A stretch of DNA of 56,647 nt from a virus. Below the pieces are notes generated by a model. It saw only the letters and a program-made list of their open reading frames with translations, had not been told where the DNA came from and did not search any database. Shown piece after piece: positions 5,428-35,661 of this stretch. How positions within the stretch are numbered: position 1 is the first letter of the stretch; each line of letters opens with the position of its first letter. The DNA lies in the IMG/VR virus record IMGVR_UViG_3300025759_014178, positions 1 through 56,647 of that record; one strand, given 5' to 3'. The translations under genes and the position numbers were made by a program.

Positions 5428-5428
5428 T

Positions 5429-10218: not shown

Positions 10219-10257
10219 CTGAGTGGTAAAGTGACTGAGTCAACAAAAAATTTAATT

Positions 10258-10986: not shown

Positions 10987-10994
10987 AACTCAGA

Positions 10995-12053: not shown

Positions 12054-12298
12054 CCGTCCGACTTCATTTGCTTTGAAAGATGCACTAGGTCGCGGTCCGG
12101 TTTTTCAATTACCTTACGGATAGCTTTTGCCTCGTTTCTTTTAGCCTCACGATCTTTGTCAGAAAGTTCTTCGTTTCGAAGAACGTCTTTTTCTAACACA
12201 AGCAAAGATTTTTCCAAATCTATCTTCAGATACTCATTCCAACCTGAACTGTTTAAAAGATTCCGGATTGCCAATATTCGATCTGTATTGTCCATCAA
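12050..12298 (-). CDS. Small helical protein downstream of portal
   Basis: This is an 82-residue, highly charged helical protein (NSSGWNEYLKIDLEKSLLVLEKDVL, then LSDKDREAKRNEAKAIRKVIE). It overlaps the portal stop by four bases and probably depends on portal translation. No family is recognised. Size and place would suit a small virion assembly factor. The gene ends against the converging plus-strand gene. Confidence 0.65.
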   Translation of the reverse strand: MMDNTDRILAIRNLLNSSGWNEYLKIDLEKSLLVLEKDVLRNEELSDKDREAKRNEAKAIRKVIEKPDRDLVHLSKQMKSDG

Positions 12299-14496
12299 GT
12301 CAGTGGCCCCGTGTTGGCCGTAGGTTGTTGCCCTGCTGCATCCATAGCACCTTCAGGCCCACCAGGCAACTCTGACCCCCCTCCGATTTGTATGTTTGTA
12401 GGGATCAAATATCGTTCTGCATTCTGTATCTGGAACGACTTTAAAATATCCACGTAAAACTGCACTGTTTGTAGTTGGATTTGCGGCGGTAGACTGTAGA
12501 ACTCCCTGACAACACTGGCAGCCTGAAGGTTTTGCTGCAACTTTTGTTCCGCGTGATAGCGGGTCATCTCAAGTCTAATATTAAGATCGAGGTGATTGAT
12601 TTCTGCTGGAGACATGACGTCCATTACCGGAGATGCACCTTCAAAAAACTCAAAAACTTCATCTTCATCAAGGTTGGCCATTGTAACCAAGACGGCTTGA
12701 TGAACTAGATCTTCAATCCCGTCTTCAAGATCGGAAACGTAAACGCCAAAAAGCTCATGGCCGCTTAGGTCAATGTTTCGAATACCTGTAGCAAGCTTGG
12801 TGGAGTTTAGGCCGGCCATTTCAGAGTCATTGGCGCTGGCAACCCCACTCATGTTCATCGCCATTTGAAGATTAAACTCAATTAAGTTCTGAAGGTCATT
12901 GGATTTAATATCCTCAAGGTAAACCGTCTCAATTACATCTTGCGCTGTTTTGTCGGGCAACGGCGAATAAGTTCCACCCCAGTTCATCTCGAGGTTTGGA
13001 TTTGAATCACCCTCAATAGTGTTGTAAGGCCGGAAAAGGTCAATTCGGCCAGAGCTTGACTGACTGAAATTCCAACGGTTGAAAGATAAGTCTACAATCT
13101 TTTGGATTGGCTCAAAAATCTCCATGGATCCAATTCCATGCCATCTTCCCTCGACAGGGTTAATTCTAACACATCGGAAGGGGCGCTTTGAGTCTGGCGT
13201 TACATTGGCGACGTGATCATAAAAAAGCGGAATGTTGTTCTTACGATCGTAAACCAAGATCACATCTTCATATCGACCGTCTTCGTTTACATCAAAACGT
13301 AGATAGGTTTCTGCAATTTCGGTGGTTGGCTCCCTTGTCGTGGCTTCAGCCTCTCCCTCTGATGTCATGTCATCTCCCGACTCGTTGAGCTCAGGGCGAG
13401 GCTTGTTTGCGGCCGTGCTTGGCTGTCCGGACTCCGATGCTACTTCTCGAATTAGATTTAGGCCTCGAATGTAGGAATCTTCACTTCCTTGAAGTGAGTT
13501 GTTGTTGACGATCATATCAACTAGCGACATCACCGGCATATCATAAAGGTGACAGATCTGGTCAGCGTCTTGAATCGATTCGGCGTTTAACGGACACAAA
13601 AAATCGCGAAAGTAGACCGTTTTTGATTCTGGCCCCCTGTAATGGGTAACTGTTCTTTCGACTTTTCTAGCCTCGTAATTGCGATTCGCTTGCGTCGGAA
13701 CTGGTGTTACTTGGTCTCGACCCAATATAGACTGGGGAACAAAATCCATTGGGTTTTCACCTTCTGGGATAACTGGTTCAACCTCAATGATGTCATCATC
13801 CGAATAAATGTAGTCGCCATCGGCGGCAATAATTGGATTTCCATCTTCACCTATCATGACCACAGCTTCGGTCTCGTAGGTAACCGACTGGTCAAGATGG
13901 GTCGTTTTAACGACTGCCTCACCCCTTATGAATGCCCCATAAATTGCACGCTCAATCGTCTTTTTAAGCTTCGCTTTCCGAAGTTTAAAATTAGCGTAGC
14001 GGTTTACCTTGTCGGCTTTTTCTTTGTCAGATTCACCTATCGGTGATGCGGCCATGAAAGGCTCAGTTCCTACAAAGTATTTGATTGCTCGGCTGACTTG
14101 TTGCTGAACGATCCTGCGACTAATTGGAACAGTGTGGTTTGATTCTTCAAAAATGCCGCGTAGAATTGACTCTCGCCATTCAACTTGGTTGGCAAAAGTC
14201 ATCTCGTAAATGATTCGGCGCCCTAGAAATGTCTGGGCTGATTTCGCGGCTCTACCGGGATCGCTTGCATACCAATTTACGTCGTAAAGATTTTCACGAC
14301 CCATCTCTCCTTCCAAAGTTTTGTTTCTGGACTCTGCCCATTCGACCAGGCGGTCTTCTTGCTGTCGATTTAACCGTAGTGCTGATTTAATCATAACACG
14401 CGGCTCATCCCTGCGATCAACGGGGGGATATTGCGGGACGTTTTCGAGGACTTTGTCAATTTGAGGTTCTGCCATAAGTCTATCTGGTAGGGCCAA
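12295..14496 (-). CDS. Portal protein
   Basis: This 733-residue protein matches podovirus (P22/N4-type) portals in length and layout: helical N-terminal wing (ESILRGIFEESNHTVPISRRIVQQQVSRAIKYFVGTEPF type), an insertion with GEDGNPIIAADGDYIYSDDD around residue 220-235, and a stem region. The C-terminal helices include LNSTKLATGIRNIDLSGHELFGVYV. An acidic low-complexity loop (ESGDDMTSEGEAEATTREPTTEIAE) lies near residues 375-400. Gene order giant protein, portal, scaffold, coat supports the call. Its start overlaps the end of the 6,597-codon gene by 17 bases. No Shine-Dalgarno is visible. Confidence 0.85.
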   Translation of the reverse strand: MALPDRLMAEPQIDKVLENVPQYPPVDRRDEPRVMIKSALRLNRQQEDRLVEWAESRNKTLEGEMGRENLYDVNWYASDPGRAAKSAQTFLGRRIIYEMTFANQVEWRESILRGIFEESNHTVPISRRIVQQQVSRAIKYFVGTEPFMAASPIGESDKEKADKVNRYANFKLRKAKLKKTIERAIYGAFIRGEAVVKTTHLDQSVTYETEAVVMIGEDGNPIIAADGDYIYSDDDIIEVEPVIPEGENPMDFVPQSILGRDQVTPVPTQANRNYEARKVERTVTHYRGPESKTVYFRDFLCPLNAESIQDADQICHLYDMPVMSLVDMIVNNNSLQGSEDSYIRGLNLIREVASESGQPSTAANKPRPELNESGDDMTSEGEAEATTREPTTEIAETYLRFDVNEDGRYEDVILVYDRKNNIPLFYDHVANVTPDSKRPFRCVRINPVEGRWHGIGSMEIFEPIQKIVDLSFNRWNFSQSSSGRIDLFRPYNTIEGDSNPNLEMNWGGTYSPLPDKTAQDVIETVYLEDIKSNDLQNLIEFNLQMAMNMSGVASANDSEMAGLNSTKLATGIRNIDLSGHELFGVYVSDLEDGIEDLVHQAVLVTMANLDEDEVFEFFEGASPVMDVMSPAEINHLDLNIRLEMTRYHAEQKLQQNLQAASVVREFYSLPPQIQLQTVQFYVDILKSFQIQNAERYLIPTNIQIGGGSELPGGPEGAMDAAGQQPTANTGPLT

Positions 14497-16486
14497 TATA
14501 TCGGCCGTTTATAAAAAGTTGATCTTTGGCTTCCCTTCGAGCCTCGGAAAGCAACGCTTTGAAATCTTTCAGGTCATCTTCCGTTGGTCTGCTAATCTTT
14601 AACGGGTTAGCCCACTGATTGACTTTGACCGAGAATTTTTGTCCTGCAAGTTTTGAAAACGCATTGCGTTGTTCATCTGTCATATCTTCCCATTCGCCAA
14701 CGCTATTTTTAAATTTGTTTGTGGTAGATCCACCCCAGGATGTCGGGAATGTGCTAATTAGATCAGGGCGCTTTATAGAAAGCGAAGACAGAAACGCATC
14801 GCCTTTGTGAAGATCAGCGGCGGCGTATGGAGTCCGAACTAGCAACCTTGCTGGCCCGACAAGAGTCTTTTCAAGATCTCTTCCGTAAAGGTCGTGCTTA
14901 GGCAGACCAAATGCGCCAACATTTGTCAGACTGTAGAGGTATCCGGATCGATCTCGAGGAACTGGATCAAGCTGTCGAAGCGGCTGCCTAATTAGGTTTG
15001 GAACAAAGCCTCTCAAGAAATCCTTAATGCTTTTTGCAATCTGTTCTTCCGCTTTCTCCGGATTTCGGTTAATCATGTCGTTGCCCATACTGATTGTGTC
15101 AGCAACTGTTCGTATTCCTTGAAGAAAAGTTTTTTCTTGCGCTTGGTTTGCTAAAGATCCAGCAAAGTTTACAAGCCATGTCTGACCATCGGTGTTAGGG
15201 TTTTTCTTAAACTCTCGAATCATGTCAACTGTCGAAGCCAGCACGGTGGAAATAGGCTCGTATCGACCGTAATCAATGTGAATACCGTTTCTTCCGCCAA
15301 TCCGAATGATGGTGCTGCTTCCATATAGACGATCTGCAAGCTGGCGATCCGAGTGTCCACCAGGAGCATAAGGACGAGATCCCACGATAAGCAAGTTTTT
15401 GTCTTCGTCATCTTCGTCCCCTTCTGCGGCGCCAAAAAGAATTGTCATTACGACACTTGCTATGCCCTGCTCTGTAATATCCCGAATCAATTCCGACCGA
15501 CCCGCCTCACCGTAGTTGGCATTGAAAGACATTTTTCCTTCAGGTCCGTAAGTTGCAATTCCAGATTTGATAACTTTGTAGAAAAGATTTGCCGTCCCGG
15601 TTATGGGAGCTTTTCGAAGGCCAATCTCAAAGATTCTGTAGGGAGTTCGGATGAACGGAAACAAAAAGCTAAGTCCCATTTTAATCATCGATTGCTCGGC
15701 TTTTTGTATTTTTGCATTTCGGAATTTTTGAACCATCGACATCCACTGCTCTCTTTTCGAAGCTTCTGGGTCAGCTCGAAATTCTTTAGTAAAAGTCAAT
15801 TCTTTTGCTTTTCCGATTGCAAGAATCCAAGCCGGACTACCGTGTTCCATTAGTTCCTCAATCCGGCTTTCCATTTGATCTTGTCGCAAGTCGCCAACTT
15901 GAACTTGAGCGTTCGCTATTCGATAAGCCTGAACTGCCACTTCGCCCATGGCAATGGATGTCTTAAACAAAGTGTCCATTGCTTGAAGGGCATTTCCAGG
16001 CATTCTAATTATCCTGCCTTTTCGACCTTGAATGCTTGGCAAGTAGGCCGATTCAACTTTAGACGCATCAAATTGGGACACTGGTTCCTGCATAGCCCAA
16101 GACTCGAAAAAGTCGAGCCCGTCATTCTTGAATGAGGACACAGCGTTTCTCCATGCGGGGGCTATTCCTTTAGAAAAACCTTTCCAAAATCTTCGGATGT
16201 CTCCGTATTGAGCTCCTTGAGCTTTGTCGCCTGGAATGATTTGATTAAAAATCGACTCGAGGCCGGTTTGAATAGTTTTGTCCCAGCCAAGGTTTAAAGA
16301 GTTTGAGAAAACATTTATAGCCTGTGTTTGTGGCCCTGATAAAATTGAGTTTATCCAAAACTCATTGATAGCATTGTAAATGTTCCCGTTGAACACTGTA
16401 GCAAGAGTTCGCGCCGCCCAAACTGCGTGCTCCGGTTTTGCAATATCGAACTGGCCACTTTCTTCACCGTGAAATTGGTTTGCGTT
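14480..16486 (-). other. Domain: C-terminal polyvalent-protein module
   Basis: Residues about 5930-6597 contain INSILSGPQTQAINVFSN and, near 6203-6225, LSFLFPFIRTPYRIFEIG followed by LRKAPI. Related phage giant proteins share this hydrophobic-Pro-Phe-x-R-T-P pattern near their C-terminus. A hydrophobic stretch, IASVVMTILFGAA, lies at about 6265. The module is probably what attaches the protein to the virion or passes through the portal or membrane. Confidence 0.65.
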
Positions 16487-19400
16487 CCGGACATCTTCCG
16501 GCACAAGCACAAACTCATCCGAAAGGCTTTGCTCATCCCGTTGCGCCATTTGCTGGGTCGCTTTTCCAAATTCTAGGCGAAGAGCCTTGCGGAAATCTTC
16601 CTCAAACTTTCTGATCTTCTCTTCGGTAATCCCTAGTTTCTTTTGTATCTTTTTGTTTGGCTGCCTATTGAGGATCATTTTGGCAGCGTCTTTGCCTACC
16701 TCAGATCTCATTCTATCTATTGCGGCTTTTACAGCCGGAGCCTGTCTGGAAGCCCTAATTCGATCGCCATTAAAAATATCGCGCAAAGTAACGCCGTAAG
16801 TTCCAAGAACATTCTTGGCGGTCTCCATGCGTTTTTGTTGAATCTCTGCGTCAACTTCGGCTGCTTTGATTTCCTCCCTGAGCGTCTTTAACTCATTTTT
16901 ATAGCGATTAGCTTCCTCAGGACTTTTGGCCTCTGAAATCAATTTGTGAACCTCTTTGATGCGATCTTGACGTTGTGGGTTCATGGCAAGATCTCTAATC
17001 CTGCGTTCTTCTGAGGCGGTATGTTCAGAAAAGCCCAAGAAAGACGCGATCATTTCCGCGTGACGTTCTGCCGGAGTTTTTGATGGGTCTCGGCCGGCCG
17101 CCAGTTCTCTAGCTACCTCAGTGCGCGTCCTTTGGTAAGCGTGAGAAAGAAGCCTCGCTCGTGAAATTGCTTGTGGGTCTTCTGAGGCTGTAGCGTCTCT
17201 CCAAGCTCGTGAAAGGACGATCTTGGCCGCGTAAACCATCTCAGCACTCCCAAGAGATGTGCGATTAGATCCCGCTTCCAGTATAGCGTTTTCAACTGCC
17301 GCAGGCGTTTGGTCGGCCATGCGGCGCCCTTCAGCCATCATGTCAGGCTCGCTTAGCTTTTCGCGCTCTCGATCGTATGCCCATTGAACTACTGAATGAG
17401 CGGCTCGAACATTTTCATCATCTGAAATATTGGCAAGTCGAGGAACCGCGGTCTGCACTTCTCCCTCCACTTCCTTTTTCCGTTCTTGCAGGTCGCTGAT
17501 AAAATCTGCAAGAGAGCCGACTTCCTCGGAAAGAACACGGGCTGCGTCGACTGCTTCGTCATCAATAGATCCTTCTTCATCTAGGTTTCCAATGTCGCGC
17601 TGGGCGGCCCCTTGGAATACTCTTTCTGCTATTTCAAGATCTCCAAGCCCTTTGACTTCAGCTACCTGAGAAGGCAAAAGCGCTACAGTTTTTGGTCTTC
17701 CACTTCCTTCTTCGTCAACCAGGATTGCGTCGTATCCCTGACTGCGGGACCAGTTTGCAACCAATGGCGTTTCAAGAAGGCCCCAGTGCGCTAGGTCAAC
17801 GCTTTGGTCAATCCATTCCGGAACTGTGTAAGGCCCAGTGATCACTTCAAAATCTTTATCGATGGCAAAGCCCTGCCGGTCCATTTCATCAGCAAGCTCG
17901 AGTTGAGTCTGACTTGGCTCTCCCACTTGGGGAATCCCGCGAAGCGCACGACGACGAATCCCCAGCACGTCAGCAAGGATGTCTCGGACTGACTCCACGT
18001 TATCTTGGAGATAACTCTTGAGGGCCGCTCCGGCTTCTCCGGTTGGGTCTAGCGGGTTTCGAATGTCAACCCATACCGGAACCGGATCGCCATAGTCTGA
18101 GGCGAGTTCAATAGGTCCGACAAAGACCAAGCCAGTGTCTGGACGGCCAGAGCCACTGATGCGGTCACCCCCATGAAAGTAAATTGATTGATCTACCGAC
18201 TCTGGGAAGGCGCTGTCTCGGGCGGCTGCGAATTGACTCAGTCTTCCGCCGCTAGGTCCGGATACTGAAGGAGGTATGCCTCCTCCAGACTGACCTCCCG
18301 GCCCCTCCGGATCTCCATCGCCTCGCGGGTCTCCTGAAGGCCCTCGATCTCCGCTGGGGTTAGGCCCATCTCCGCTTCCGTCATCCCACGCAAAGGAGGG
18401 AGTGAAGTTTGCTGTAAGGGCTGATCGGACATTACTAAAATCGGTTGATGATTTATTATTGTCCCATAATTCAGCGACTTCAGCAACCATTTTCGGACCC
18501 TTGCCAGCAAATATTTGACGGATCATTTCCCAAGTAATCGACTGCATCTGGCGGGGCTGAATACCGCGCTGTGCGGCAGCATCGCGAAGAGCCTCAAGGT
18601 GCGCCCAATAAAGTCCCGTGAGACCATTTCCTGCTGATCCAGAGGTGGAAGTTGTCGTTCCATCTGGAAGGTTGAATCCTGAACTGCTACCAAAATTGAC
18701 TCCTACTTGGTAATCCTTTTGAGCCAGTGGGAACATGAAAGCAGCGGCAACGTGATGGGTGTCGATAGTTCCGTCACCATACCCGTTATTCGGAGCAATG
18801 ATGTTATTGTAAAAATTTCTCACTTTGTGGTCATTGCTGATGGATGCACTAATATTCTCCAGAGATCCATCCTGAAGAACGCTAAACGCATTCCAGACCC
18901 CAGAAGCCGCTTGCCACCCCATGCCGGCAGGCTGTCCCGCTTTTGTCTGGGCTATGCCACCAACCCTACCCTCGGGATAGATCGTCTTGTAGTTCAGCCC
19001 GTGGACCTCACCGGTAAGGAATCGGAAAGCCCAATAGAAATCTGATTTAACCTTTTTGTCTTTCGTCGCCTCGGTTAGCAGGTCACGGAGTGTTTTTCCT
19101 TCCGCGTATGCCAGTTCTTCTGGCACGCTTTCATACAAGGCAAATGACTTAGGATCTTTGGCGTCCGCTTTTCGGATGGGGCGGTCCATGTGATTTTGCC
19201 AAACGTCCATAAGGTTGTGTCCCATCTGCACGTTCTGAAACCAATCTTTTCCTGGGCTTAGAGTGGCAAAAACGCCAGCGGCCTGTTCAGCAGTAACTCC
19301 ATAATCAGAAGCGGCATTGTCGGCCAGAATCCTCGCCCCGTCATACCAAAGCGAAGCCCTTTGCCTGAGTTTTTCTCCGTTGGGAATAGTGTCATAAAGG

Positions 19401-28400: not shown

Positions 28401-31400
28401 GCTTGAATGGCCTCTTCTGCAAAATTCTGACCGCCTTTCTGGGCTGCTTTTTTCAACCCGCGATCAGCGGCTGTGATAAGCTCTTGAACCGACACTCCTG
28501 TTTGGCGGTATTGGGCTGCTACCATCAACGAAATTCCTGATTCGCGAAGATACTCAATCCGATCCTTTGGCGTCTTAATAGTATCGGGGGCTTTTTCTTC
28601 CGCGAACAGGTTCAATGCACCAGACTCTATCTGATTCATTGCTTCAATCGTGTAATCCCGGATGTCCTCAATTTGACGCCTGATGTCTGGATCAAGGTTT
28701 GGATCCTGCAACGAAAAACCAATTGCTTCTGCAAGACTCTCAAGTAACTCGAGGAGCTTGTCCCACATATTTTTGGGCGGCAGCAGCGCCACTGACACTT
28801 GTCCGGTTCGAGCTTGCTCGATAACCATGTTAAGATACTCGTGTCCCATGTAGACCGGATCAAGCATACGCTCAGCCATCTCTCGGTATTGTTCAGGCCA
28901 TTCTTCAATCGGGACAGAGGTAAGGTCGATCCCGTCCTGACGCATCGCCTTGTCGTAAGTGTAACTAAAATACGCTTGGCCTACTGTGTCTTTTGTCTCT
29001 TGGCTAAGTGCCTCGTAAATTTCAGCTACTCTTTCGTCACCGCCTACACTGCGGAGTAACCATCTGACAATATTGTGTGTTGTTTCTTCCGCCATCACCC
29101 CGTCGACAAAGTCAATGGCTTCTTGGATAGATCCTCCTTCCGCGATTCCACTAAGGGCCGCTCGAATGATGTTGGCTGGGTCAACGCGAAGATTTCCAGT
29201 TTGAGTCACCGCCGCTGGTGAAGCCATTCCTTTCATGACTTCCACGTTTCTAAACGCCCCTTCCAGGGCTTTAGTTCGCTGGGCAAGTCGCTCCATTAGC
29301 ATGTAGGCAACGTTTGCAACTTCCTGCTCGGTCAAGTTTGGAAACGATCTTCCTAAAGAGCGCACAACATCCTCTACAATTTGAGGGCCGGCCTGCCTAA
29401 ACTTGGCCTCACCTGGACCTTGTTGGCCTTGACCAATTCGGAACATGCGAGGGTCATAATCTGGGATCTGACCGACTGTTTCGTCGACCGGAGTATCCTG
29501 TGCTTCTTGTTGCAGTCGCTCTTGTTCTGCAAAGCGATCGCTGGGCAATGGAATCGTTTCTTGTAGTTCGGGCGTTGGGAGTTCACCCATCCGGCCGTCT
29601 TCAATACGTTTGACGGTCTCATCTCTCGACATCTCCACAAGCGCGGCCTGTGCTGGAGCATTTTCAGTTGCCCATTCTATGATTTCTTTATTTACTACCG
29701 GCACCCCTTTGAAATCTTCAATAGCAGGACCAACTCCCAGTTCCTCGTTACCGTTTCGAACTAAGTCCCAGTCGGAATCAGAAAGATATTCGGATCGTCC
29801 TTGGGCAATCTTAGTAGCAATGTTTGCCTGTTGAATCCGAACCCGCTGTGCTCGAAGTTCATTGAGGGCTTTTTCGGCTTCAGCCGCAGCAACAAAACCG
29901 CCAGATTTCTCAGCTTCGAAGAATTGCTTTTCGGCGGTCGCAATGTCCTCATCGATTTGAGCAAGTTGTTCTGCGTTTTCTCTTGTGGCGATAACCTGTC
30001 GGCCCATGCGGCGACCGGCATCTTGCCCTTGCAGCGCCAGTGCGGCCGTCAAAGCCATTTCGGCTTCGCGAGTCTGTGGAGAATCCCAGCCATACGTTTC
30101 AGTGGCGCTTTCTAGCTCCTTTCGCATGACCGCGACAGACTTTCCTCCTGGTTTCGCGGCTTCGCGTGAACCACCGTAAGTAGCGTTGATTTCATCAACT
30201 TCTTCTTGCGTGGGTGGCGCCGACCCATCAGGCATGTTCTCGTAAATAGCTTCCGCAGCATCTTCTCCCTGCAAAGCCTCGAGTTTTGCTTCGGTGGCAC
30301 GAGTAGCTGCATCGATCAAAACGTCTTGACGCCTTTTGGCCTTTCTGAACTTACGACCCAGCATCAAGTTCTCAATGATAGTTGAGCCAAGGCCCATCAA
30401 ACCACCAATCGCGGTTTCTTCGACGATTTGAGTGCCATCTTCGGCAATTCTCTCATTAAACCTTTCTACAAATGAGCGCCCGAGATCTGGGCCGTAGTCG
30501 ACTCCTCCAGCTTCAACCCTTCCTGGGGTAGGAAGAGTAAGTTCGCTTACCGTTACGTTTCCAACGGCCACAAGCCCTTCTTGCCCCCCTTCCGCCAGTG
30601 TGTTTGCAAGAGCGCTGTTAAACTTGCGCCAAAACGTAGGCGGCACTTTGGTCATGTCGACCATTTTGAAAATTCTTTCGATCGGCAAGCCCTCGGTGTA
30701 GCCCAGCCCCATGTAGCCGATCATCGTAAGAATGGATTTTTGAATATTGACCTGTTCGTCAAAATCCAAGTCAGGGTCTGCCGCAGCTCTTTCGGCGGCC
30801 ATTTCAAGTTGCCGAAATCCCTCAGTTGAGTTCACCATTGCTCCCTGAAAGCCTATGAGGCCTAACGGGTGGCTGCCAGCAAAACTAGACTTAGGTCCAA
30901 AACGAAAAATCTTTTCTTCTGGAGACGCTCTTCGAATAAAATTTGATCCCCGCATCGCTCCGGACCTCAAAAGGGACGCCCTGCCAATTAAACCTCCAGC
31001 CCAAAATCCACCCATAGAGCCAAGTCCGGTCATTCCATGAGCAAAGTAGTTTCGATCGTTCAATGGGTTTGTGCCACTTTGCACACCTTCCTCAACCGCT
31101 TCCGCCCACCTTACAAGCGGGTTGTTTTCAATGTCTTCACCAATTACTGCTGAAATGTAATCAAGCTCTTTACCAATTTGCTTTTGAGCATCGGTCGAAA
31201 GTTTTTTGTAAGATTGGCTGTCTTGAAACACTTCCAAAGCTTTTCGATATTGAACAGCGTTGATTTTTTGGGGCGGCATCCACTCTCCGGTTTGCTGGTT
31301 TTTTCCGCCGCCTACCTCGGCTCGCCTAATCGTGTCCTCAGTCCAAATATTGTATTCTTTGCCATGCTCGACATATTTTTCTGAAGGCCGTCTTACCAAT

Positions 31401-34273
31401 TCGTTAATCGAGTCTCCTGGTCCCATCATGTGACCAAGAGTCAAAACTCCTTTGGCTGGAAACATATTGACGGCACCAGAAAGAATCCTGATCGGCGCGT
31501 CTGAAAACCCTTTTGGATTAAACCCTTCTCGGCGAGCCTCTTCTCGGACCATGTCCTGAAGTTTCTTCTCCTGCTCGAGGCTAAGTTCCAAATCTCGGCG
31601 CTCTACAAGTTGAATGTTCTCGCCATACATGCCAGCCATCTCGCCGACCACCACTTCACCAAAGAGCTTTTCCGCAAGGCGGTTTTTGAGTTGCTCCTCA
31701 TAAGACAACATCATCATGATCTTGTCTCGGTAGTCGAGAACTGTCATGGGATCTAACATGACTAAGCCGCCATTTTGCTTACGATATTCGTCCAGCGCTT
31801 CCATGTAATCGGTCGAGATGGGCGTATCTGATACGTTTTCTTTTACCCACTCGTCGATAAACGGTTCCAAAGCTTCTGGTTGTTCCAACGACATCCCAGC
31901 TTTCCGAGCTAAATCGATTACTTGAGAGAAGTCACCGCCGCCAGCAAACGCTGCATTTCTGAGGCCCAGGATCTGGTCTTGTAGTTCATTTCTCTCTCTG
32001 CCAAGTCCACCTGGTCCGTAGATTTCGTCGACTTTCTGTTTGTAAAGTCGTTCTCCCTCAACTTCATCAAGAGTCCCAGCAGCGACTTGATTGAATATGT
32101 CTTGAACTCCAGACTTTTTAAATAGCTCTTCGTTGCGCCGTTTGAACTTCTCTATCAAAGCAGACGTAGCTGCGATTTTTTCTGGAGTAATTTGCAACTC
32201 TTCGACGGCAAATTCTGAAGCTTGGCCTCCGCTCAAAACAGCCCTTGTGTCCTCAAGAAACGAAGTCACTATTTCGGGATCAACTCCCACTGGGGCTTTG
32301 TAATCTTCAAACGGGTCAAACGCTGAAGTTTTGAAAATGCCTTCCCCCATCTCCAATCGCAATCTAGGATCTTCGACAACTTTAATTTCTCTTCCGGCTG
32401 CTGATGGAAAAGCTGATTGCAGATTGTTGCGATAGACATTCCACACTTCGCCAGAATCTCCGTTTGGAAGAACCTTTTCTTCGACCCAGCCTACTTGCTT
32501 CCCATCAAACATGAGCTCAGCAACAGCATTTCCTTTGGCCACAAGCGCACGGCGCTGAGCTAAGTTTCGAGCAGCAGTTTTCTGCTCTCTAACATTTTTC
32601 TCAACTTCAAAAGCGTTATACGATGGATAAGAAGATCCTAAGTAAGGTTGTGGGTCGGGACCTTTTACCGCAGCCTCACTTTGTTGCAGCCAACTTTCTC
32701 GATCTTCAGGAAACGCTTTAACTTCAATGGCCGTTTCATTTACTGGCTTTCCTGATTGCCTATCTGCTTGCGCCAATTCCGCCACACGGTTTTGGGATTT
32801 GACTACTTCATTGTAAGTATCAATTTGACCTTGTTTCCTAGCGCTTAGGATCTCGGCATCAATTTCAAGCTGTTGAAGTTTCTGTTCTTCTGCCCTGATT
32901 TGGTCGTTGGTAATTTGCTGACCGGACAACGTTGTTCCGGCGCCCTGCCTCAATGAATTGACCAAGTTACTCTGCTCTTCGACTGAAGCCATACGGCCCT
33001 GCAACTCTGCATCAGTCGATTCAACTCCGGACCAGATTTCTCGATTTTTAACGCTTAGTTTTGCAGCTTCGACTTGCCTTTTAAAATAAGGAAGTTCCGA
33101 AATTTCATTTGCCGAAACCTCTTCCTTTTTTTCTTTTATGCTTTGATTGGCTGGACCGACTCCTTGATATTCGTCGTGATCGCTTTCAATCCATTTTTCA
33201 AACTCTTCGTCCCGGATGCTTTCCTCGCTTGGGATGTTTCCTTTCCACTGCTCTGTCAGTTTGTTTATCCGAGCACGCTTAGCTTCGGCTTCTGAACGGA
33301 TTGCGCGGTTTTCTTGCTCTCTCCTAAGCTCATCATCGATTAGTGGATTATCTTGATTTTCCGACAGGACCTTGTCAACATAGCTGGGGTCAACCCGCAT
33401 ATTGTAAAGACGCTCTCTTCGAGCCTCGAGCTCAGCGACGTCCTGTTTTGCTTTTTTCTCCTTTGCTCCAAATTTGAAGAACCCGATGTTTTTGTTTGCC
33501 TCTTCAAGTTTGTTAGAAATTTCTTGCTCTTCGTTTTGCAGAATGTTATTAGCGACTGCAATTCGACGTTCGTTATAATCAGTATCCGTCAGTTCTGTTT
33601 TCGCAGCGTCAAATTGAGCTTTATAACCGCTCATGTAGCCTTTAGCCCGATTTTCAAGTTCGGTTCGGCGCTCTTTAATTTTTTCTGCGGTCTCCTCGGC
33701 TTTTTTGGCTTGAAGCTCTGCTTTCCACTCTTCGCCTGAAAGAACAGGCCGCGGAAATCCAGGTCGATCAGGGTCTTCAACATACTCCCGTCCTGTGCGA
33801 GCTTTCTCGAGGTCAGCTATGTTCCATTCCCGTTCTTTTTGGGCCGCCAATTCACTTTTTTGCTCACTTTCAAGCTGAGACTGAATTTCTTTATTTTGTC
33901 TTTCCGCTTCGCGTCGACGGGCTACTTGCTCTTTTTGTCGAGCCGCATCTTCCCGAGCTTGGATTTCAATTTCGTCGCGAAACAAACTCCTAGCGTAAGG
34001 GCTTCGCAGGGCGGTATAGTTGAACCTGTTTGGATCGTAAAATGGCTGAAAAGCCTCAGGGGTCCCAGGAGTGGGTTCTTTTTGCCGCAATTGATTACGC
34101 AAACGCTGGTTTGTAACTTCAGGATCGGGATCTGCTAAAGCGGGGTCAGTCGGGCTTACGACCGGCCGATCTCTAAGTATTTTTGGTCGCAGCCTTTGCC
34201 CCTGAGACGAAGCACTCCCTTGTGGAAGCGCCGGTGTAGGGTTCAGGGCGTCTTCAAGATTTTCGTTACCCAT
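14480..34273 (-). CDS. Giant polyvalent (internal virion) protein, 6,597 residues
   Basis: One open frame of 19.8 kb without a stop encodes a mosaic of domains, approximately: N-terminal coiled coils (100-560); hydrophobic helical patch (1075-1105); degenerate zincin-like AEETTH (about 1724); sigma-region-4-like HTH (2005-2060); ADP-ribosyltransferase-like domain (2255-2560); GHKL ATPase (2600-2800); HEITH zincin (3358); C5 DNA methyltransferase (3520-3805); phosphoribosyltransferase (3960-4145); SAM methyltransferase (4245-4395); two GNAT domains (4415-4535, 4690-4825); conserved phage domain (4890-5270); second ADP-ribosyltransferase-like domain (5358-5545); C-terminal polyvalent-protein module (5930-6597). 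This is the architecture described for polyvalent proteins of phages and conjugative elements, thought to enter the host with the DNA and disarm defences. It precedes portal, as internal virion proteins often do. Whether it is cleaved is not visible. Confidence 0.95.
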   Translation of the reverse strand: MGNENLEDALNPTPALPQGSASSQGQRLRPKILRDRPVVSPTDPALADPDPEVTNQRLRNQLRQKEPTPGTPEAFQPFYDPNRFNYTALRSPYARSLFRDEIEIQAREDAARQKEQVARRREAERQNKEIQSQLESEQKSELAAQKEREWNIADLEKARTGREYVEDPDRPGFPRPVLSGEEWKAELQAKKAEETAEKIKERRTELENRAKGYMSGYKAQFDAAKTELTDTDYNERRIAVANNILQNEEQEISNKLEEANKNIGFFKFGAKEKKAKQDVAELEARRERLYNMRVDPSYVDKVLSENQDNPLIDDELRREQENRAIRSEAEAKRARINKLTEQWKGNIPSEESIRDEEFEKWIESDHDEYQGVGPANQSIKEKKEEVSANEISELPYFKRQVEAAKLSVKNREIWSGVESTDAELQGRMASVEEQSNLVNSLRQGAGTTLSGQQITNDQIRAEEQKLQQLEIDAEILSARKQGQIDTYNEVVKSQNRVAELAQADRQSGKPVNETAIEVKAFPEDRESWLQQSEAAVKGPDPQPYLGSSYPSYNAFEVEKNVREQKTAARNLAQRRALVAKGNAVAELMFDGKQVGWVEEKVLPNGDSGEVWNVYRNNLQSAFPSAAGREIKVVEDPRLRLEMGEGIFKTSAFDPFEDYKAPVGVDPEIVTSFLEDTRAVLSGGQASEFAVEELQITPEKIAATSALIEKFKRRNEELFKKSGVQDIFNQVAAGTLDEVEGERLYKQKVDEIYGPGGLGRERNELQDQILGLRNAAFAGGGDFSQVIDLARKAGMSLEQPEALEPFIDEWVKENVSDTPISTDYMEALDEYRKQNGGLVMLDPMTVLDYRDKIMMMLSYEEQLKNRLAEKLFGEVVVGEMAGMYGENIQLVERRDLELSLEQEKKLQDMVREEARREGFNPKGFSDAPIRILSGAVNMFPAKGVLTLGHMMGPGDSINELVRRPSEKYVEHGKEYNIWTEDTIRRAEVGGGKNQQTGEWMPPQKINAVQYRKALEVFQDSQSYKKLSTDAQKQIGKELDYISAVIGEDIENNPLVRWAEAVEEGVQSGTNPLNDRNYFAHGMTGLGSMGGFWAGGLIGRASLLRSGAMRGSNFIRRASPEEKIFRFGPKSSFAGSHPLGLIGFQGAMVNSTEGFRQLEMAAERAAADPDLDFDEQVNIQKSILTMIGYMGLGYTEGLPIERIFKMVDMTKVPPTFWRKFNSALANTLAEGGQEGLVAVGNVTVSELTLPTPGRVEAGGVDYGPDLGRSFVERFNERIAEDGTQIVEETAIGGLMGLGSTIIENLMLGRKFRKAKRRQDVLIDAATRATEAKLEALQGEDAAEAIYENMPDGSAPPTQEEVDEINATYGGSREAAKPGGKSVAVMRKELESATETYGWDSPQTREAEMALTAALALQGQDAGRRMGRQVIATRENAEQLAQIDEDIATAEKQFFEAEKSGGFVAAAEAEKALNELRAQRVRIQQANIATKIAQGRSEYLSDSDWDLVRNGNEELGVGPAIEDFKGVPVVNKEIIEWATENAPAQAALVEMSRDETVKRIEDGRMGELPTPELQETIPLPSDRFAEQERLQQEAQDTPVDETVGQIPDYDPRMFRIGQGQQGPGEAKFRQAGPQIVEDVVRSLGRSFPNLTEQEVANVAYMLMERLAQRTKALEGAFRNVEVMKGMASPAAVTQTGNLRVDPANIIRAALSGIAEGGSIQEAIDFVDGVMAEETTHNIVRWLLRSVGGDERVAEIYEALSQETKDTVGQAYFSYTYDKAMRQDGIDLTSVPIEEWPEQYREMAERMLDPVYMGHEYLNMVIEQARTGQVSVALLPPKNMWDKLLELLESLAEAIGFSLQDPNLDPDIRRQIEDIRDYTIEAMNQIESGALNLFAEEKAPDTIKTPKDRIEYLRESGISLMVAAQYRQTGVSVQELITAADRGLKKAAQKGGQNFAEEAIQAAQQEIENLLDKLKVPAEGRPGTIRPNLIEKILSYNAQSEAEAWRYGEIIKDDIVKTLPTKQRQVMERKGKGFSSTRIGKELGLNLRAVENIAKEAEKTIQQQLDKAAKIRGRNQRTEDLSAPARDVERSSRKIDQPFPTDRFGPDQGAAPRNFPNPRTILTGDDLDTDLYIPTGYKHAKWGEGDKNDLTWTEDPANIRSMDHDPDVDAVITGVFRYGTGVTGMDMLAWLRSELGGDAKIEVADIVADAEGFYQKAVEYELIDDYFPKYSEEYWDDDEVPIQNAALREDPEELTQIWSDSHPLTKNPDGTPVAFYRGHFDDDLFSIPSRPSSFLGPGVYFTNNVGDASAYADYDNHPDGAGEEIQVQLADRIAEEEGLDIETAMLKAQEIMEVEHAPRITPVYLHGKKWFQIMPYEVDQPRWTFEIDYEVDAYKEDALNKLILENEADLRQEYEDALELYPDLGTFENYVKSEKEDEINEAAQEMAFETNYDPRESGEIAELFNGILDELRDSFTAEETLIEFGEIGIAELRDGIQQAKLQLSEYGSMTMTEIAQRVFGLHPMTPESWSRTDSMIPVGPGVGGFLLGLGLRRMGYDGIIMDATTYFPGMDQVNEMDTVHAMVFDAKPVYGMFGGVARKRRDPLQWAAKRAGFEEVKPLITSKKSDIIDVARGKIYSQDMGTVIVRELLQNSLDAIRPQIAKGQRPQDQKVTLFLDPENRVIEVTDTGHGMPPEVVASALVDITKSFKETDGAGGYGLAKAVIFGNSKQFEVETVYQERDGSWSKTIMTGDAQNWENTINEDPNGVRILTERNFEPSEALEPEEVKIESEWFNQTNAELTGKYLPTGNAFPEGIRFKHAGYQVRLEVSPELIPNLPEVFQNEESIEEIASIINDEESQISGYLDDWVRSWVGDDRYHGSADALKSSVAEYRSYIENQIDVFADVDQKFIDRFSAFTKDSNASGLSDISRTFKGLIGQLPPPLQKKIYDHWAEKFPEAGLRPLNQEPVSVDEEWNGVVLKGYFNKGDDFAGFIGRSPEQAYFSNFGFSVAEEDIKLGEALKKYLSSEMEDSVYVTGKPTTYTRVRSTIDDSVQFDFSMAEKTFELISENDTTGTEFEIGTTGAGLSVDDLTEKTPEGRKAIKRLKNTSQDLEFIKQVNALEANYKIYRSENLVSSNRLVIQVLNRGIWQFSTIADITAQVQLPEKLVIDVHPNVDATHDDYPFTAGRDNFHGVAIGRNESFYKNYEQDAMVSKNKALKSRWDASPTMTLPSVRNIRVVDVSGSNSELAQEIVNHEPSNQLFAKMAATFKRVQTVLMDNGFDAAEKGDLVAWNIGQDAIGVNYKTKVHVGEQDLNVIGEKEYAISLDPSIILNRSIENSKRLGLDQYGTIVRKFATDSVTTMLHEITHNGGFGDASENYTYQLTENVSRMALENLNIIDELADDLETIFTETDLQQFLQRVDSQQDQNDSHDYAVFIQGTPTGRDGANFRLGSNVDIAPGSRVDQESSQVGSEVDTEATERTQSAQQSLPDLQAAARRQSINRRPDAFGNTRDRAGRLIEVSGDIQWPKGSGPNGGWNVLSLFDGIAAGRQALKNLAVPVDNYYGSEIEKSAIAIAKHNHPDIQELGDVTKVTGDEIPKIDLLWGGSPCQGFSRAGKRKGMEDPRSKLFWDYVRLWKKTAPRFFLLENVRMKPEDEAIITRALGVAPIRINGNLLTGANRDRLYWTNISVTQPMDIGVELKHVIQPRASKDLLWNRAKVDAFMSKPKANGTIRWNNSNHSDVRRPKAMALVKSMDKGYPKNLLVDKQGQYRKFSMAETARLMGLPDEYLSDVPDVANGNKYAGAGNSWAVPVIEHILQHAATQPKGLQASAQRFEADQLARSEYQMHAIRKSGALVHLSKHPDTMWHVEVGRPERQVIGMFDNPKEATAALSIWAVSKDLKRGDTIRSIDHGGRSFEVISTDNYKLQARDQMTGQEGELDFTKVFRTRPKRQNAAQREMQTWPMNFPMVQSHSTLVALKGKKGSEKEARHERAKKGDLDAAMEIVTEVMKPEKAQELASLYPGAVLATPNSRENNFTNAIPEAMAAWISHTTGMPMEESLHEVGQANHTKANAWERLFRVPQYGGEIDPTKEYVLVDDVSTSGSTFNSMRSYIQEQGGTVVASVAIASPNSPQNGPGWVLQPTSEALTYIDDYYREGEIGGIEAVSELLSKHALSPVATLTNSQIWLLAGGKPNRKKPVEWTLKDLDRRLEAGRKAEEDRQIENRAQGAARRSIDLWGKPKQRFSSKDTARGNAGGIPAGYRYLSDKGLIKPGQKVLDIGTGPFRYADSAVEEMGAQFYSYDPQWEERSDDVKKALAEAIDGKSDVVVTNNVLNLIPEKTNQRRLILQAENALKPGGKFYVTIYRAPEKGQVGDRDQFQVGESLNYYRGLIETVFGKGNVIRDGEVLIALKEPTAEQWFKHTTGRAGDQSAASRPVVYEENGIQVKDMGDDVYRAYVGRNLAGQLALHSRGWDERGRRMSYKTFVKPEFRRRGVATAMYRAAESNLEEPLYPSGTLSDEGFKFWLGFRPDALPAKDLRRIQKDLVGKRVTSPSDNNQPGTIKAAGGVGENSIVVIEFDSPIDDRNSTTSAVAAREVADQLPQIAEFLDSPTGEQGAAPRDIASRISSKQDADYLAAVESGDMETAQRMVDEAAMAAGYWRRNDYMAKWAFKKIGITPNQIKNLQNAEKLDEKTEKQFARWNAPQAISFDGSMEEATGRYGNISTYTSVTGASLFTRYSLEVGGEARGFIIVSSDNPGSRPSGRPPKIFAMYVAPEFRGDGVSTKLVDFALNHQGSLDSDWMVSKDAAKRYSTYLERGFIKSADPVTRDADGNVIPLSQRFNPKSDLLQEAAQRQFPAQRSSGSSGFNSVSSIHDASRIGTAKQGNKIPSQEDIVTRERVAPEHLEKQMGMMTHFTLPRYDRIAKKIKGIEVPLPRYFSDKRLTAETRAKRLHDFFVENLLFLHDLYDTIPNGEKLRQRASLWYDGARILADNAASDYGVTAEQAAGVFATLSPGKDWFQNVQMGHNLMDVWQNHMDRPIRKADAKDPKSFALYESVPEELAYAEGKTLRDLLTEATKDKKVKSDFYWAFRFLTGEVHGLNYKTIYPEGRVGGIAQTKAGQPAGMGWQAASGVWNAFSVLQDGSLENISASISNDHKVRNFYNNIIAPNNGYGDGTIDTHHVAAAFMFPLAQKDYQVGVNFGSSSGFNLPDGTTTSTSGSAGNGLTGLYWAHLEALRDAAAQRGIQPRQMQSITWEMIRQIFAGKGPKMVAEVAELWDNNKSSTDFSNVRSALTANFTPSFAWDDGSGDGPNPSGDRGPSGDPRGDGDPEGPGGQSGGGIPPSVSGPSGGRLSQFAAARDSAFPESVDQSIYFHGGDRISGSGRPDTGLVFVGPIELASDYGDPVPVWVDIRNPLDPTGEAGAALKSYLQDNVESVRDILADVLGIRRRALRGIPQVGEPSQTQLELADEMDRQGFAIDKDFEVITGPYTVPEWIDQSVDLAHWGLLETPLVANWSRSQGYDAILVDEEGSGRPKTVALLPSQVAEVKGLGDLEIAERVFQGAAQRDIGNLDEEGSIDDEAVDAARVLSEEVGSLADFISDLQERKKEVEGEVQTAVPRLANISDDENVRAAHSVVQWAYDREREKLSEPDMMAEGRRMADQTPAAVENAILEAGSNRTSLGSAEMVYAAKIVLSRAWRDATASEDPQAISRARLLSHAYQRTRTEVARELAAGRDPSKTPAERHAEMIASFLGFSEHTASEERRIRDLAMNPQRQDRIKEVHKLISEAKSPEEANRYKNELKTLREEIKAAEVDAEIQQKRMETAKNVLGTYGVTLRDIFNGDRIRASRQAPAVKAAIDRMRSEVGKDAAKMILNRQPNKKIQKKLGITEEKIRKFEEDFRKALRLEFGKATQQMAQRDEQSLSDEFVLVPEDVRNANQFHGEESGQFDIAKPEHAVWAARTLATVFNGNIYNAINEFWINSILSGPQTQAINVFSNSLNLGWDKTIQTGLESIFNQIIPGDKAQGAQYGDIRRFWKGFSKGIAPAWRNAVSSFKNDGLDFFESWAMQEPVSQFDASKVESAYLPSIQGRKGRIIRMPGNALQAMDTLFKTSIAMGEVAVQAYRIANAQVQVGDLRQDQMESRIEELMEHGSPAWILAIGKAKELTFTKEFRADPEASKREQWMSMVQKFRNAKIQKAEQSMIKMGLSFLFPFIRTPYRIFEIGLRKAPITGTANLFYKVIKSGIATYGPEGKMSFNANYGEAGRSELIRDITEQGIASVVMTILFGAAEGDEDDEDKNLLIVGSRPYAPGGHSDRQLADRLYGSSTIIRIGGRNGIHIDYGRYEPISTVLASTVDMIREFKKNPNTDGQTWLVNFAGSLANQAQEKTFLQGIRTVADTISMGNDMINRNPEKAEEQIAKSIKDFLRGFVPNLIRQPLRQLDPVPRDRSGYLYSLTNVGAFGLPKHDLYGRDLEKTLVGPARLLVRTPYAAADLHKGDAFLSSLSIKRPDLISTFPTSWGGSTTNKFKNSVGEWEDMTDEQRNAFSKLAGQKFSVKVNQWANPLKISRPTEDDLKDFKALLSEARREAKDQLFINGRYIGPTR
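17639..18202 (-). other. Domain: ADP-ribosyltransferase-like, copy 2
   Basis: QSIYFHGGDRISGSG starts the domain with an aromatic-His-Gly-Gly strand, LVFVGPIELASDYG replaces the usual Gly-x-Tyr block, and YDAILVDEEGSGRPKTVALL gives the final strand seen in ART-type polyvalent domains. It is preceded by a Gly/Pro/Ser-rich linker (about residues 5290-5350). Confidence 0.6.
18464..19606 (-). other. Domain: conserved phage domain of unknown function
   Basis: Residues about 4890-5270 include LWYDGARILADNAASDYGVT followed by an AAGVFATLSPGKDWFQN segment, and later DTHHVAAAFMFPL. I recall this combination as a recurring domain in phage polyvalent proteins resembling a helix-hairpin nucleic-acid-processing fold. 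The conserved D-x-H-H may be catalytic. The function is not known to me. Confidence 0.5.
19799..20206 (-). other. Domain: GNAT acetyltransferase, copy 2
   Basis: FAMYVAPEFRGDGVSTKLVD (about residues 4760-4780) is a second GNAT motif A, followed by a helix and a Tyr-containing YSTYLERGFIKS strand typical of the C-terminal part of the fold. The two GNAT domains are not close copies, so they probably arrived independently. Confidence 0.78.
20669..21031 (-). other. Domain: GNAT acetyltransferase, copy 1
   Basis: TFVKPEFRRRGVATAMYRAA (about residues 4478-4497) carries the V-x-P-x-x-R-x-x-G-V/I-A acetyl-CoA pyrophosphate-binding motif A of GNAT enzymes. A preceding beta region and a following GFKFWLGFRP element complete the fold. 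Confidence 0.8.
21089..21541 (-). other. Domain: class I SAM-dependent methyltransferase
   Basis: GQKVLDIGTGPFRYADSAV (about residues 4265-4283) is motif I and SDVVVTNNVLNLIPE (about 4314-4328) is the post-II acidic/strand-4 region. ALKPGGKFYVTIYRAP is the strand-5 block of small-molecule or protein methyltransferases. The substrate is unknown. Confidence 0.85.
21839..22396 (-). other. Domain: phosphoribosyltransferase-like
   Basis: KEYVLVDDVSTSGSTFNSMR at about residues 4084-4103 is the PRPP-binding loop signature (hydrophobic strand, Asp-Asp, Thr/Ser-Gly-Ser-Thr) of type I phosphoribosyltransferases. The preceding segment ends in a substrate-hood-like region. Such domains occur in polyvalent proteins and may act on nucleotides. 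Confidence 0.8.
22859..23716 (-). other. Domain: C5 cytosine DNA methyltransferase embedded in the giant protein
   Basis: VLSLFDGIAAGRQAL is motif I, GGSPCQGFSRAGKR is motif IV with the catalytic Cys at residue 3603, FFLLENVRMKPEDE is motif VI, and GAGNSWAVPVIEHIL is motif X. All key motifs are intact in about 285 residues, giving a compact enzyme of the Dnmt3-like phage type. Methylating incoming or host DNA early would protect against restriction. The segment looks GC-richer than flanking parts. Confidence 0.92.
24074..24256 (-). other. Domain: zincin metalloprotease (HEITH)
   Basis: SVTTMLHEITHNGGFGD contains the HExxH zinc-binding and catalytic motif at residues 3358-3362, in a helix following a typical hydrophobic run. 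It may cut host proteins, or process the giant protein itself. The third zinc ligand cannot be assigned with certainty. Confidence 0.75.
25874..26476 (-). other. Domain: GHKL (HSP90/histidine-kinase-like) ATPase
   Basis: Three diagnostic blocks appear in order: N-box VIVRELLQNSLDAI (about residue 2640), G1 box VIEVTDTGHGMPPEVV (about 2680) and G2 box GAGGYGLAKAVIFG (about 2713). These bind ATP-Mg in the Bergerat fold of HSP90, MutL, gyrase B, histidine kinases and MORC proteins. The region after it (2800-3300) probably forms the partner S5 and C-terminal parts. Confidence 0.85.
26570..27511 (-). other. Domain: ADP-ribosyltransferase-like, copy 1
   Basis: PVAFYRGHFDDDLF (about residue 2265) begins with the Arg-Gly strand of ADP-ribosyltransferase folds, SFLGPGVYFTNNVGDASAYA is the Gly-x-Gly-x-Tyr-Phe-Thr block, and about 230 residues later YDGIIMDAT supplies the final strand. 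The set matches ART-type domains reported in polyvalent proteins. Targets would be host proteins or nucleic acids. Confidence 0.65.
28094..28261 (-). other. Domain: sigma-region-4-like helix-turn-helix
   Basis: Residues about 2013-2056 begin LPTKQRQVMERKGKGFSSTR and continue with a GKELGLN turn and a recognition helix, followed by KEAEKTI. The pattern of Leu-Pro, Gln-Arg-x-Val-Met, Gly-x-Gly and I-G-x-x-L-x-L matches region 4 of sigma-70 family or LuxR-type HTH domains. It could bind promoter -35 elements or RNA polymerase after injection. Confidence 0.6.
32594..33976 (-). other. Domain: N-terminal coiled-coil region of the giant protein
   Basis: Residues about 100-560 are dominated by Glu, Gln, Lys, Arg and Ala in heptad-like order, for example AARQKEQVARRREAERQNKE and later EEQKLQQLEIDAEILSARKQ. 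Such long coiled coils are common in internal virion proteins that must unfold and refold during ejection. Confidence 0.7.
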
Positions 34274-34287: not shown

Positions 34288-35661
34288 TTACCGGCGAACG
34301 CTGTTCTGATCGCGAAACATTTTTCGATCGATCTGATTAGACTTAGCTTGGGAGACCCTTCGCGCATCAGAGGCGGCTCTTGACCCCGCATCCAAAAGCT
34401 CTTTTGCCATTCCTTTGGCGCCCCGTCCCTGTAGACCTGTTTCGTAAATGCCTTCATATCCAGGAACCTTGTCAGTGGAAAAAGCTTCTTTACTAGTCAT
34501 TGGCACGCCAGACCTAGTCTCAAACATCTCGTAGGCGCTGGGTTTATAGGGTTCGATTCCTCGGCTTGCTTGCGCGTATCCACCTCCATACTGAGCAGGG
34601 ATCTCCATAGTTCTAATTTCAGGGCCAGTCCTTTGGGTGGCCCTACCCATTGCAGAATTTTCCATGAAATTCCCAGCGGCTATTTTGCGCTCTTCCATCG
34701 GGAGCGACTTATCGTATGCGTCTCTTGCGGCCGCGTTTGCTTTGCCGGCGTATTCTCGAGCTTCTTTGTTGTAAAGCCGCGTAATACCCTTTTTATCGGT
34801 CGCAGAGCCATATTCCTCAATGTCCTTTTGAGTCTGCATACGATCGGCTACTTGAGCCAGCTTCTTTTCTCTTACCGCTACGGCGCCTTGCGCGGCGGCC
34901 TTGTTAGCATCCTGTCGGTCAAAAAAGCGGTAATGGTCTTCTCTTTCACGACGCTCGGCTTCTTTTCGAAGTTGAAAATTGTCAGTCCCAAGAGAACTAG
35001 ATGGTTTGAATCCGGATGCGGTGGTGGAAAAATCTCTGTAGGGGTTCACTCGGTTTGGATCTAAGTCTTGGGGTTGGCCGTATTTCGAATAACCAAATTT
35101 TGGTCGAATAGGGTTACCGCTTTCATCGACCCTGGAAATGCCAGTGTTTGCGGCGGCCATGTCCGGCTCACGATTTACCTTCTGATCCTGAACTGACTGG
35201 AAAGCTTCAGGCATAGTCATCCCTTTGAATGGACCTTTTTTATATGTCATATTTCCAGCCGGACCACTTGTGTAACCAGATTGATTAAATTGTCTATCAG
35301 CTAGTTGTTCGGGACTGCCTTCGTAAGGGTCCGGCGCTGGCACAGGTTGACGCCTAACGCTTTGCGGGGCATTCGAGCCGTTGTCGCCATCGGTCGGCGT
35401 TCGAGACTGCAAATTGCTGTCGCTGTAATCGGCCTTGCCCATTTGGGCATTTTTCTTGGCACCATAACCCGCTACGGGTTGAGCAGTTCTTCCTACTCCC
35501 CGCAAAGCTCTTTGAGTTTTTTGAGTTTGCGGACTGTTGAAACCATTAATGAACCTACTGTATGGATCATCCGCTTCATTTAAAAATCCTTGTGCGGATT
35601 GGTTAAAGCCGGGCATGTTGTATTGCATCGCCATACCCTCTTTCTGAGTGGTGATGGCCAA
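34288..35661 (-). CDS. Hypothetical virion-associated protein
   Basis: This 457-residue protein (or 448 if the internal ATG at 35634 is used) is polar and mostly disordered or helical, rich in Gly, Gln, Ser, Arg and Ala. A charged helix around residues 230-290 includes RREREDHYRFFDRQDANKAA. The C-terminus is Arg-rich. It ends 14 bases before the giant gene starts, so the two are probably co-transcribed. It may be a companion internal virion or ejection protein. No family is recognised. A TTGACA element lies about 27 bases upstream of the start. Confidence 0.65.
   Translation of the reverse strand: MAITTQKEGMAMQYNMPGFNQSAQGFLNEADDPYSRFINGFNSPQTQKTQRALRGVGRTAQPVAGYGAKKNAQMGKADYSDSNLQSRTPTDGDNGSNAPQSVRRQPVPAPDPYEGSPEQLADRQFNQSGYTSGPAGNMTYKKGPFKGMTMPEAFQSVQDQKVNREPDMAAANTGISRVDESGNPIRPKFGYSKYGQPQDLDPNRVNPYRDFSTTASGFKPSSSLGTDNFQLRKEAERREREDHYRFFDRQDANKAAAQGAVAVREKKLAQVADRMQTQKDIEEYGSATDKKGITRLYNKEAREYAGKANAAARDAYDKSLPMEERKIAAGNFMENSAMGRATQRTGPEIRTMEIPAQYGGGYAQASRGIEPYKPSAYEMFETRSGVPMTSKEAFSTDKVPGYEGIYETGLQGRGAKGMAKELLDAGSRAASDARRVSQAKSNQIDRKMFRDQNSVRR

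Follow-up and report, generated by a model that had tools for sequence, protein, structure and literature searches.

How unrelated enzymes are packed into one injected protein, and whether they work joined or apart, has been open since the polyvalent proteins of phages were described. Their release by an embedded peptidase, with a comparison to RNA-virus polyproteins, was proposed by Iyer et al. (PMC5512222) without pointing to cleavage sites of the kind reported here, and the P1 protein DdrB is processed before packaging (PMC5512222). In a second related system, the ejection protein gp16 of T7 exits via the portal and refolds, and its C-terminal part ends up in the cytoplasm (PMC8954989). Here we analysed the IMG/VR record IMGVR_UViG_3300025759_014178 (56,647 nucleotides; the window, which is the whole viral record), where one gene encodes a protein of 6,597 residues, hereafter the giant. 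Its C-terminus is homologous to an ejection protein, and a short peptide, Q-x-A-A-x-R, recurs between its predicted enzyme units. On balance we favour the reading that in the giant an internal virion protein D, the T7 gp16 type of ejection protein, has grown into a polyvalent effector polyprotein, which would be delivered by the virion and cut at these joints.

The giant frame and its C-terminal core

The gene, its putative core and the two virion genes used as landmarks are the following (HMM, hidden Markov model; iE, independent E-value).

14480..34273, minus: giant polyvalent protein gene, 6,597 aa, 735 kDa (734.9 kDa computed)
14951..16882, minus: predicted internal virion protein D core, aa 5798-6441 (HMM iE 2.6e-50; hhalign 99.4%; phrog_6651 1.4e-5)
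12295..14496, minus: portal protein, next gene downstream of the giant (phrog_1216 5.7e-18)
7561..9096, minus: major capsid protein (phrog_334 3.6e-10)

The last 747 aa of the giant are about 23% identical to the "internal virion protein D" of Pelagibacter and Roseobacter Autographiviridae. Profile-profile comparison of the two (hhalign) gave 99.4% with E 2e-21, and an HMM built from 68 members of the family matched aa 5798-6441. By this homology, we assign the C-terminus as the ejection-protein core of internal virion protein D. The complete relatives of protein D in IMG/VR, 65 in number, had a median length of 1,220 aa and reached at most 2,615 aa; the matched core lay in their C-terminal part. 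In four annotated phages the protein measured 1,211-1,309 aa and was followed by the tail fibre gene in three; in CRP-361 an unnamed gene occupies that place. Both ends of protein D are kept, with an insert between them, in the loci L065, L067 and L046, and scanning of inserts and extensions detected cargo: DUF7178 and a methyltransferase in L065, an ADP-ribosyltransferase (ART) in L067, and InPase plus ART on the N-terminal side in L034. These longer relatives probably represent intermediate forms, with cargo held within the same ejection protein. If homology carries function, cargo fused to the ejection core would be delivered.

On the minus strand a 457-aa gene comes first, then the giant and the portal gene; next stands a gene called scaffold-like for its position and acidic sequence, without a profile match, followed by capsid, small structural genes and a tail fibre gene with a T7-like N-terminus. 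Considering that the upstream gene lies 14 bases from the giant and that the portal gene begins at the giant's end, the giant belongs to the late block. Co-injection has a physical reason, since the C-terminus matches an ejection core and this late gene stands directly upstream of portal and capsid. The original prediction, made from the sequence alone, had called the protein polyvalent and suggested a co-injected package: the first term holds by domains and virion-gene context, and co-injection is well supported by core and late position. Delivery in the virion by means of the C-terminal module is, in our judgement, very probable. Alternatively, this would be an ordinary polyvalent protein, large by accumulation, which leaves its C-terminal module unused for packaging and acts inside the producing cell. 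That the gene order differs from T7 fits such an account; the position directly before portal and capsid genes, the strong homology to an internal virion protein and the similar giants adjoining virion genes in phages LS06-2018-MD07 and CRP-738 do not, and we hold it quite improbable.

An open reading frame (ORF) scan placed the giant on the minus strand, which the prediction had left unspecified, as one frame from ATG to stop with 6,597 codons and zero internal stops, just as had been claimed, while the plus strand across 14480-34273 is full of stops. Bases 1-148 recur at 56500-56647 as a direct end repeat (147/148 identical) and two relatives continue unbroken across the window's ends; because of both, the genome is complete or nearly so, and therefore the 35% share that the prediction gave this gene also stands, for a genome of 56.5 kb. 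The record, though classed otherwise, is a complete genome, circularly closed or terminally redundant. Comparison with the nearest relative, G001 (IMGVR_UViG_3300028844_004948), gave an overall dN/dS of 0.26 over 6,147 aligned codons, with all tested regions below 0.65: the frame is under purifying selection. G001 and another relative, G003, have one frame break each, at different sites and with a 2-bp and a 1-bp difference respectively, which may be assembly errors or mutations. A DNA search for relatives in phage records gave no match, tblastn with aa 1-3400 gave zero matches, and the giant contains no strong transmembrane helices (none exceeding Kyte-Doolittle 1.3).

Enzyme units and the joint peptide

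Upstream of the core, the chain appears to hold about nine enzyme units. The assigned features are listed in chain order (HTH, helix-turn-helix; SAM, S-adenosylmethionine; PRPP, phosphoribosyl pyrophosphate).

27965..34273, minus: N-terminal part, aa 1-2103, with charged helical region, glycine-rich stretch (aa ~900-1360) and HTH, without junction peptide
28109..28243, minus: sigma-70 region-4-like HTH, aa 2011-2055 (Pfam Sigma70_r4_2 E 7.7e-5, under the curated cut-off; NCBIfam)
26534..27481, minus: possible ART-PolyVal-like ADP-ribosyltransferase 1, aa ~2265-2580 (weak Pfam E 0.004; FYRG / GVYFTNN / YDGII patterns)
26024..26359, minus: GHKL/HSP90-like ATPase, aa 2639-2750 (Pfam HATPase_c 1.2e-6; NCBIfam HSP90 2.5e-7; N, G1 and G2 boxes present)
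24188..24202, minus: zincin signature HEITH, aa 3358-3362 (motif; weak profile match NF038122 E 0.027)
22727..23740, minus: C5 DNA methyltransferase, aa 3512-3849 (E 1.6e-42; PCQ, ENV and GN motifs; G001 allele divergent)
21911..22339, minus: phosphoribosyltransferase, aa 3979-4121 (phrog_22413 E 1.8e-28; PRPP motif VLVDDVSTSGS)
21191..21505, minus: SAM methyltransferase, aa 4257-4361 (Pfam Methyltransf_23 3e-7)
20771..20938, minus: GNAT acetyltransferase 1, aa 4446-4501 (profile search)
19919..20083, minus: GNAT acetyltransferase 2, aa 4731-4785 (profile search; cassette swapped in G001 and G003)
18500..19477, minus: DUF7178 domain, aa 4933-5258 (Pfam E 1.2e-19; HhH-GPD glycosylase-like model; K5150 and D5171 invariant in the alignment)
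17654..18184, minus: possible ART-like domain 2, aa ~5364-5540 (residue pattern alone)

Profile searches thus placed at least two biochemically unrelated enzyme domains in one chain, encoded among virion genes (portal and capsid downstream on the same strand). The HTH, the GHKL ATPase, the C5 and SAM methyltransferases, the phosphoribosyltransferase and both GNATs named in the original prediction were recovered by profiles; its zincin came down to HEITH plus a weak match, the first ART was weak and the second was seen as residue patterns. Absent from that list were DUF7178, the internal virion protein D C-terminus and the eleven junction peptides. Motifs for the GHKL boxes, PCQ/ENV, PRPP site and HEITH were all seen here, and G001 retains most of them.

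The peptide Q-x-A-A-x-R occurs in 11 copies in the giant:

27947..27964, minus: junction peptide 1, QGAAPR, aa 2104
27542..27559, minus: junction peptide 2, QNAALR, aa 2239
26456..26473, minus: junction peptide 3, QWAAKR, aa 2601
23798..23815, minus: junction peptide 4, QAAARR, aa 3487
22421..22438, minus: junction peptide 5, QNAAQR, aa 3946
21596..21613, minus: junction peptide 6, QGAARR, aa 4221
20990..21007, minus: junction peptide 7, QSAASR, aa 4423
20435..20452, minus: junction peptide 8, QGAAPR, aa 4608
19733..19750, minus: junction peptide 9, QEAAQR, aa 4842 (exact edge of the swapped cassette)
18218..18235, minus: junction peptide 10, QFAAAR, aa 5347
17597..17614, minus: junction peptide 11, QGAAQR, aa 5554

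Shuffled sequences contained a mean of 0.19 copies (maximum 3, n=5,000) and first-order Markov copies a mean of 0.25 (maximum 3, n=2,000). With the units taken from our own annotation, two of them by pattern only, zero copies fell within enzyme units and all eight neighbouring unit pairs were separated by a copy, which was matched by none of 200,000 random placements. A consensus peptide is therefore repeated between functional units, and this points to separable units rather than to one working machine. The segments between joints, with the cut set arbitrarily between the two alanines, would be 235, 15, 41, 99, 51, 30, 22, 20, 26, 55, 22 and 117 kDa; the last (1,041 aa) is close to the normal size of internal virion protein D. 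The peptide was absent from this phage's other proteins and from other ORFs of at least 100 aa in the other loci, so a general head-protease site was discarded. The signature is apparently undescribed, being mentioned neither in the main text of PMC5512222 nor in the open papers that we searched.

Another possibility is that the joints are seams of recombination, left behind when modules were exchanged or duplicated, and have no function in the protein. Cassettes are indeed exchanged inside the frame. Third-position divergence from G001 is about 2-10% along most of it, rises above 40-50% over most of the C5 methyltransferase and reaches 50-60% around aa 4380-4620. In G001 and G003 an unrelated module of ~790 aa takes the place of the GNAT2 cassette (aa ~4593-4847); Pfam gave no family for this module in G001, and after the block near-identity restarts exactly at joint 9. 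Taking into account these jumps and the swap ending at a joint, domains are exchanged as blocks while frame and joints are kept. Nevertheless, the codons differ among all 11 copies, and also in other giants; hence it is the peptide and not the DNA that is conserved, a DNA repeat is ruled out and no shared DNA is available for recombination at the joints. The peptide was also retained where the flanking sequence had diverged: G001 keeps 10 of the 11 joints exactly, including those with diverged or swapped flanks, and has VPLFAAQR near the eleventh, while the relative G002 has GAAERD at the last joint. Seams without a protein role are accordingly given little credence.

DUF7178 is encoded by at least 586 stretches of viral contigs, in proteins from 842 aa to more than 3,400 aa; in phage LS06-2018-MD07 it lies in a 3,102-aa protein following virion genes and in phage CRP-738 in an 836-aa protein near the portal. 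The seven best structural neighbours of its AlphaFold model were five entries of the 8-oxoguanine DNA glycosylase AGOG and two of PaMx11 gp46, a glycinyltransferase acting on modified thymidine. The best AGOG match had Z 6.9, a root-mean-square deviation of 4.9 and 192 aligned residues. Foldseek gave no significant match of the model in the PDB, and the profile matched no solved structure there. The alignment showed an invariant K and D 21 positions apart (HKVRNF...DTHxVAA), which we take to resemble the Lys/Asp pair of HhH-GPD glycosylases (VDTH in EndoIII). Because Z is below 8 and Foldseek found no significant PDB match, the likeness to an HhH-GPD glycosylase is offered as a lead.

Repeated peptides in other phage giants

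A search for dispersed repeated peptides of any kind covered 44 long ORFs of related loci, this giant and the G001 copy among them. The repeat score of this giant was 15.5, compared with a null maximum of 8.55 in 176 shuffles. Six other proteins were marked in a similar but weaker way:

L127: NYSI, score 9.0
L124: D[TV]LxAR, score 8.6
L136: LFGG, score 8.3
L151: D[IV]L[GA]SR, score 7.4
L116: [TV]FS[ILM], score 7.4
L163: [AS]SxRG, found by eye

These proteins were picked for high score or likeness and shuffling is a lenient null, so that their individual significance is modest. Each peptide was essentially limited to its own protein: the seven-by-seven counts were nearly diagonal, few copies appeared in the 36 other giants, and one consensus common to all was rejected. 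In the five of the six in which Pfam domains could be placed (DUF7178 ends being approximate), zero copies lay inside domains and the peptides stood at domain edges. The ART domain of L116, L136 and L151 is flanked by differing peptides at matching places, ~21-23 aa before it and 9-11 aa after it. This agreement in position is a stronger point than the single scores. Automatic repeats in L056 and L194 were left uncounted as low complexity or probably recurring domain motifs. The L056 ORF (2,114 aa, strongly repetitive, NTT/NTA-rich, near an internal virion protein D gene) is probably a fibre-like protein. The DUF7178 locus L193 (CAIKVZ010000090.1, a contig of a betaproteobacterial metagenome-assembled genome) carries a complete polyvalent-type ORF of 5,134 aa; since it also exceeds 5,000 aa, the giant's size alone is not unique.

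Tentatively, polyvalent phage proteins in general may be polyproteins, each with its own joint peptide read by a cognate protease that releases the effectors; the peptide would vary by phage while its position relative to homologous domains, such as those flanking ART, would stay fixed. The same sequence facts would suit a protein injected uncut, in which each linker bears a signal for docking or unfolding, addressed to a packaging chaperone, a scaffold or an ejection partner, so that all domains can be threaded through the portal. A comparable protein, the virion RNA polymerase of N4, is packaged without processing (PMC5512222), and T7 gp16 is thought to exit the narrow portal channel partly unfolded (PMC8954989). 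Against a signal of this type, the other giants have wholly different peptides at the same places, and a fast-changing enzyme site accounts for that no worse than a conserved chaperone site would. We consider an uncut protein unlikely, while giving it appreciable weight.

Proposed mechanism and known systems

For the polyprotein reading, the giant would be built into the virion core through its C-terminus, exit via the portal either together with the DNA or before it, and be cut at the eleven joints either in the prohead or in the host. Cutting would yield some ten small effectors of 15-99 kDa, along with an N-terminal piece of 235 kDa and an ejection protein which, at 117 kDa, is of nearly normal size. 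The effectors could then act at once, modifying or repairing DNA (C5 methyltransferase, DUF7178), modifying proteins (two ARTs, two GNATs, SAM methyltransferase) and carrying out nucleotide chemistry (phosphoribosyltransferase). An anti-defence role is plausible for some domains, but host takeover would suit the ART, GNAT and HTH units just as well. The embedded zincin is, weakly, the first candidate cutter; HExxH is enriched in this class (33 of 59 ORFs, 1.8 expected). A general cutter role was rejected for it: L116, L127 and L136, half of the six other marked giants, lack HExxH, which rules out a universal one, and its homology to the zincins of the class is weak.

Several points weigh against this reading, in addition to the lack of HExxH and the uncut N4 polymerase. 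The N-terminus of the protein D family was not found in the giant (hhalign probability 0.1; HMM fragment iE 0.16), and aa 800-1480, tried as its counterpart, was unsupported by profile comparison. The ejection-core model was poor (pLDDT, the per-residue model confidence, of 52) and no T7 gp16 match was listed, so that name, family and gene order are what connect the core with T7 gp16. Cutting at the joints is inferred; we lean modestly towards proteolytic separation of the effectors there. The joint peptides point to exact positions for inspection, of which eleven are predicted in this giant and more lie in several others. They could also mark domain borders without homology, which aids the discovery of unknown effectors. 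The way in which injected effectors are exchanged would be illustrated by an ejection protein that carries natural cargo and has one cassette swapped between near-identical phages.

The genome also has genes for RecE/RecT, SSB, terminase and endolysin, and no integrase was found among the proteins scanned. The 457-aa gene directly upstream of the giant (34288-35661, minus) has no family match, and its position makes it a candidate for a second ejection protein or for a partner of the giant. Two ORFs of unassigned kind (278 and 352 aa; 10150-12053, plus) lie within the minus-strand late block, and ORFs comparable in size and location occur in G001 and G003, likewise opposite to the late genes. 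Beyond the tail fibre, 1-2191 (minus) holds a sulfotransferase-like gene, a methyltransferase gene and a 295-aa gene of unassigned function, possibly for surface-glycan modification.

By comparison with known systems, the protease gp245 of SPN3US (motif AXE; PMC10052503) also uses a short motif repeatedly in virion proteins; in that phage the sites belong to the propeptides of a number of head proteins, whereas the present motif occurs in a single protein, between its domains. The giant of Rhodobacteraceae phage LS06-2018-MD07 (WBK39883.1) shares ART-PolyVal, SAM methyltransferase and DUF7178 and directly follows virion genes, but is half the size, with no enriched junction peptide and no protein-D core detected. 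Internal virion protein D of Pelagibacter phage HTVC025P (AXH71713.1) and of Roseobacter phages CRP-361 and CRP-403 is homologous over its C-terminal ~640 aa; the giant is five times longer and precedes the portal, and the N-terminal part of the family is unrecognised in it. With the polyvalent proteins of Iyer et al. (2017, PMC5512222) it shares disparate enzymes in one chain, ART-PolyVal, GNAT, zincin and portal/capsid neighbours; it departs from them in its 6,597 aa within a 56-kb genome, its C-terminal ejection core and its repeated junction peptide. The giant is an extreme member of this known class, set apart by size, ejection-protein fusion and joint signature.
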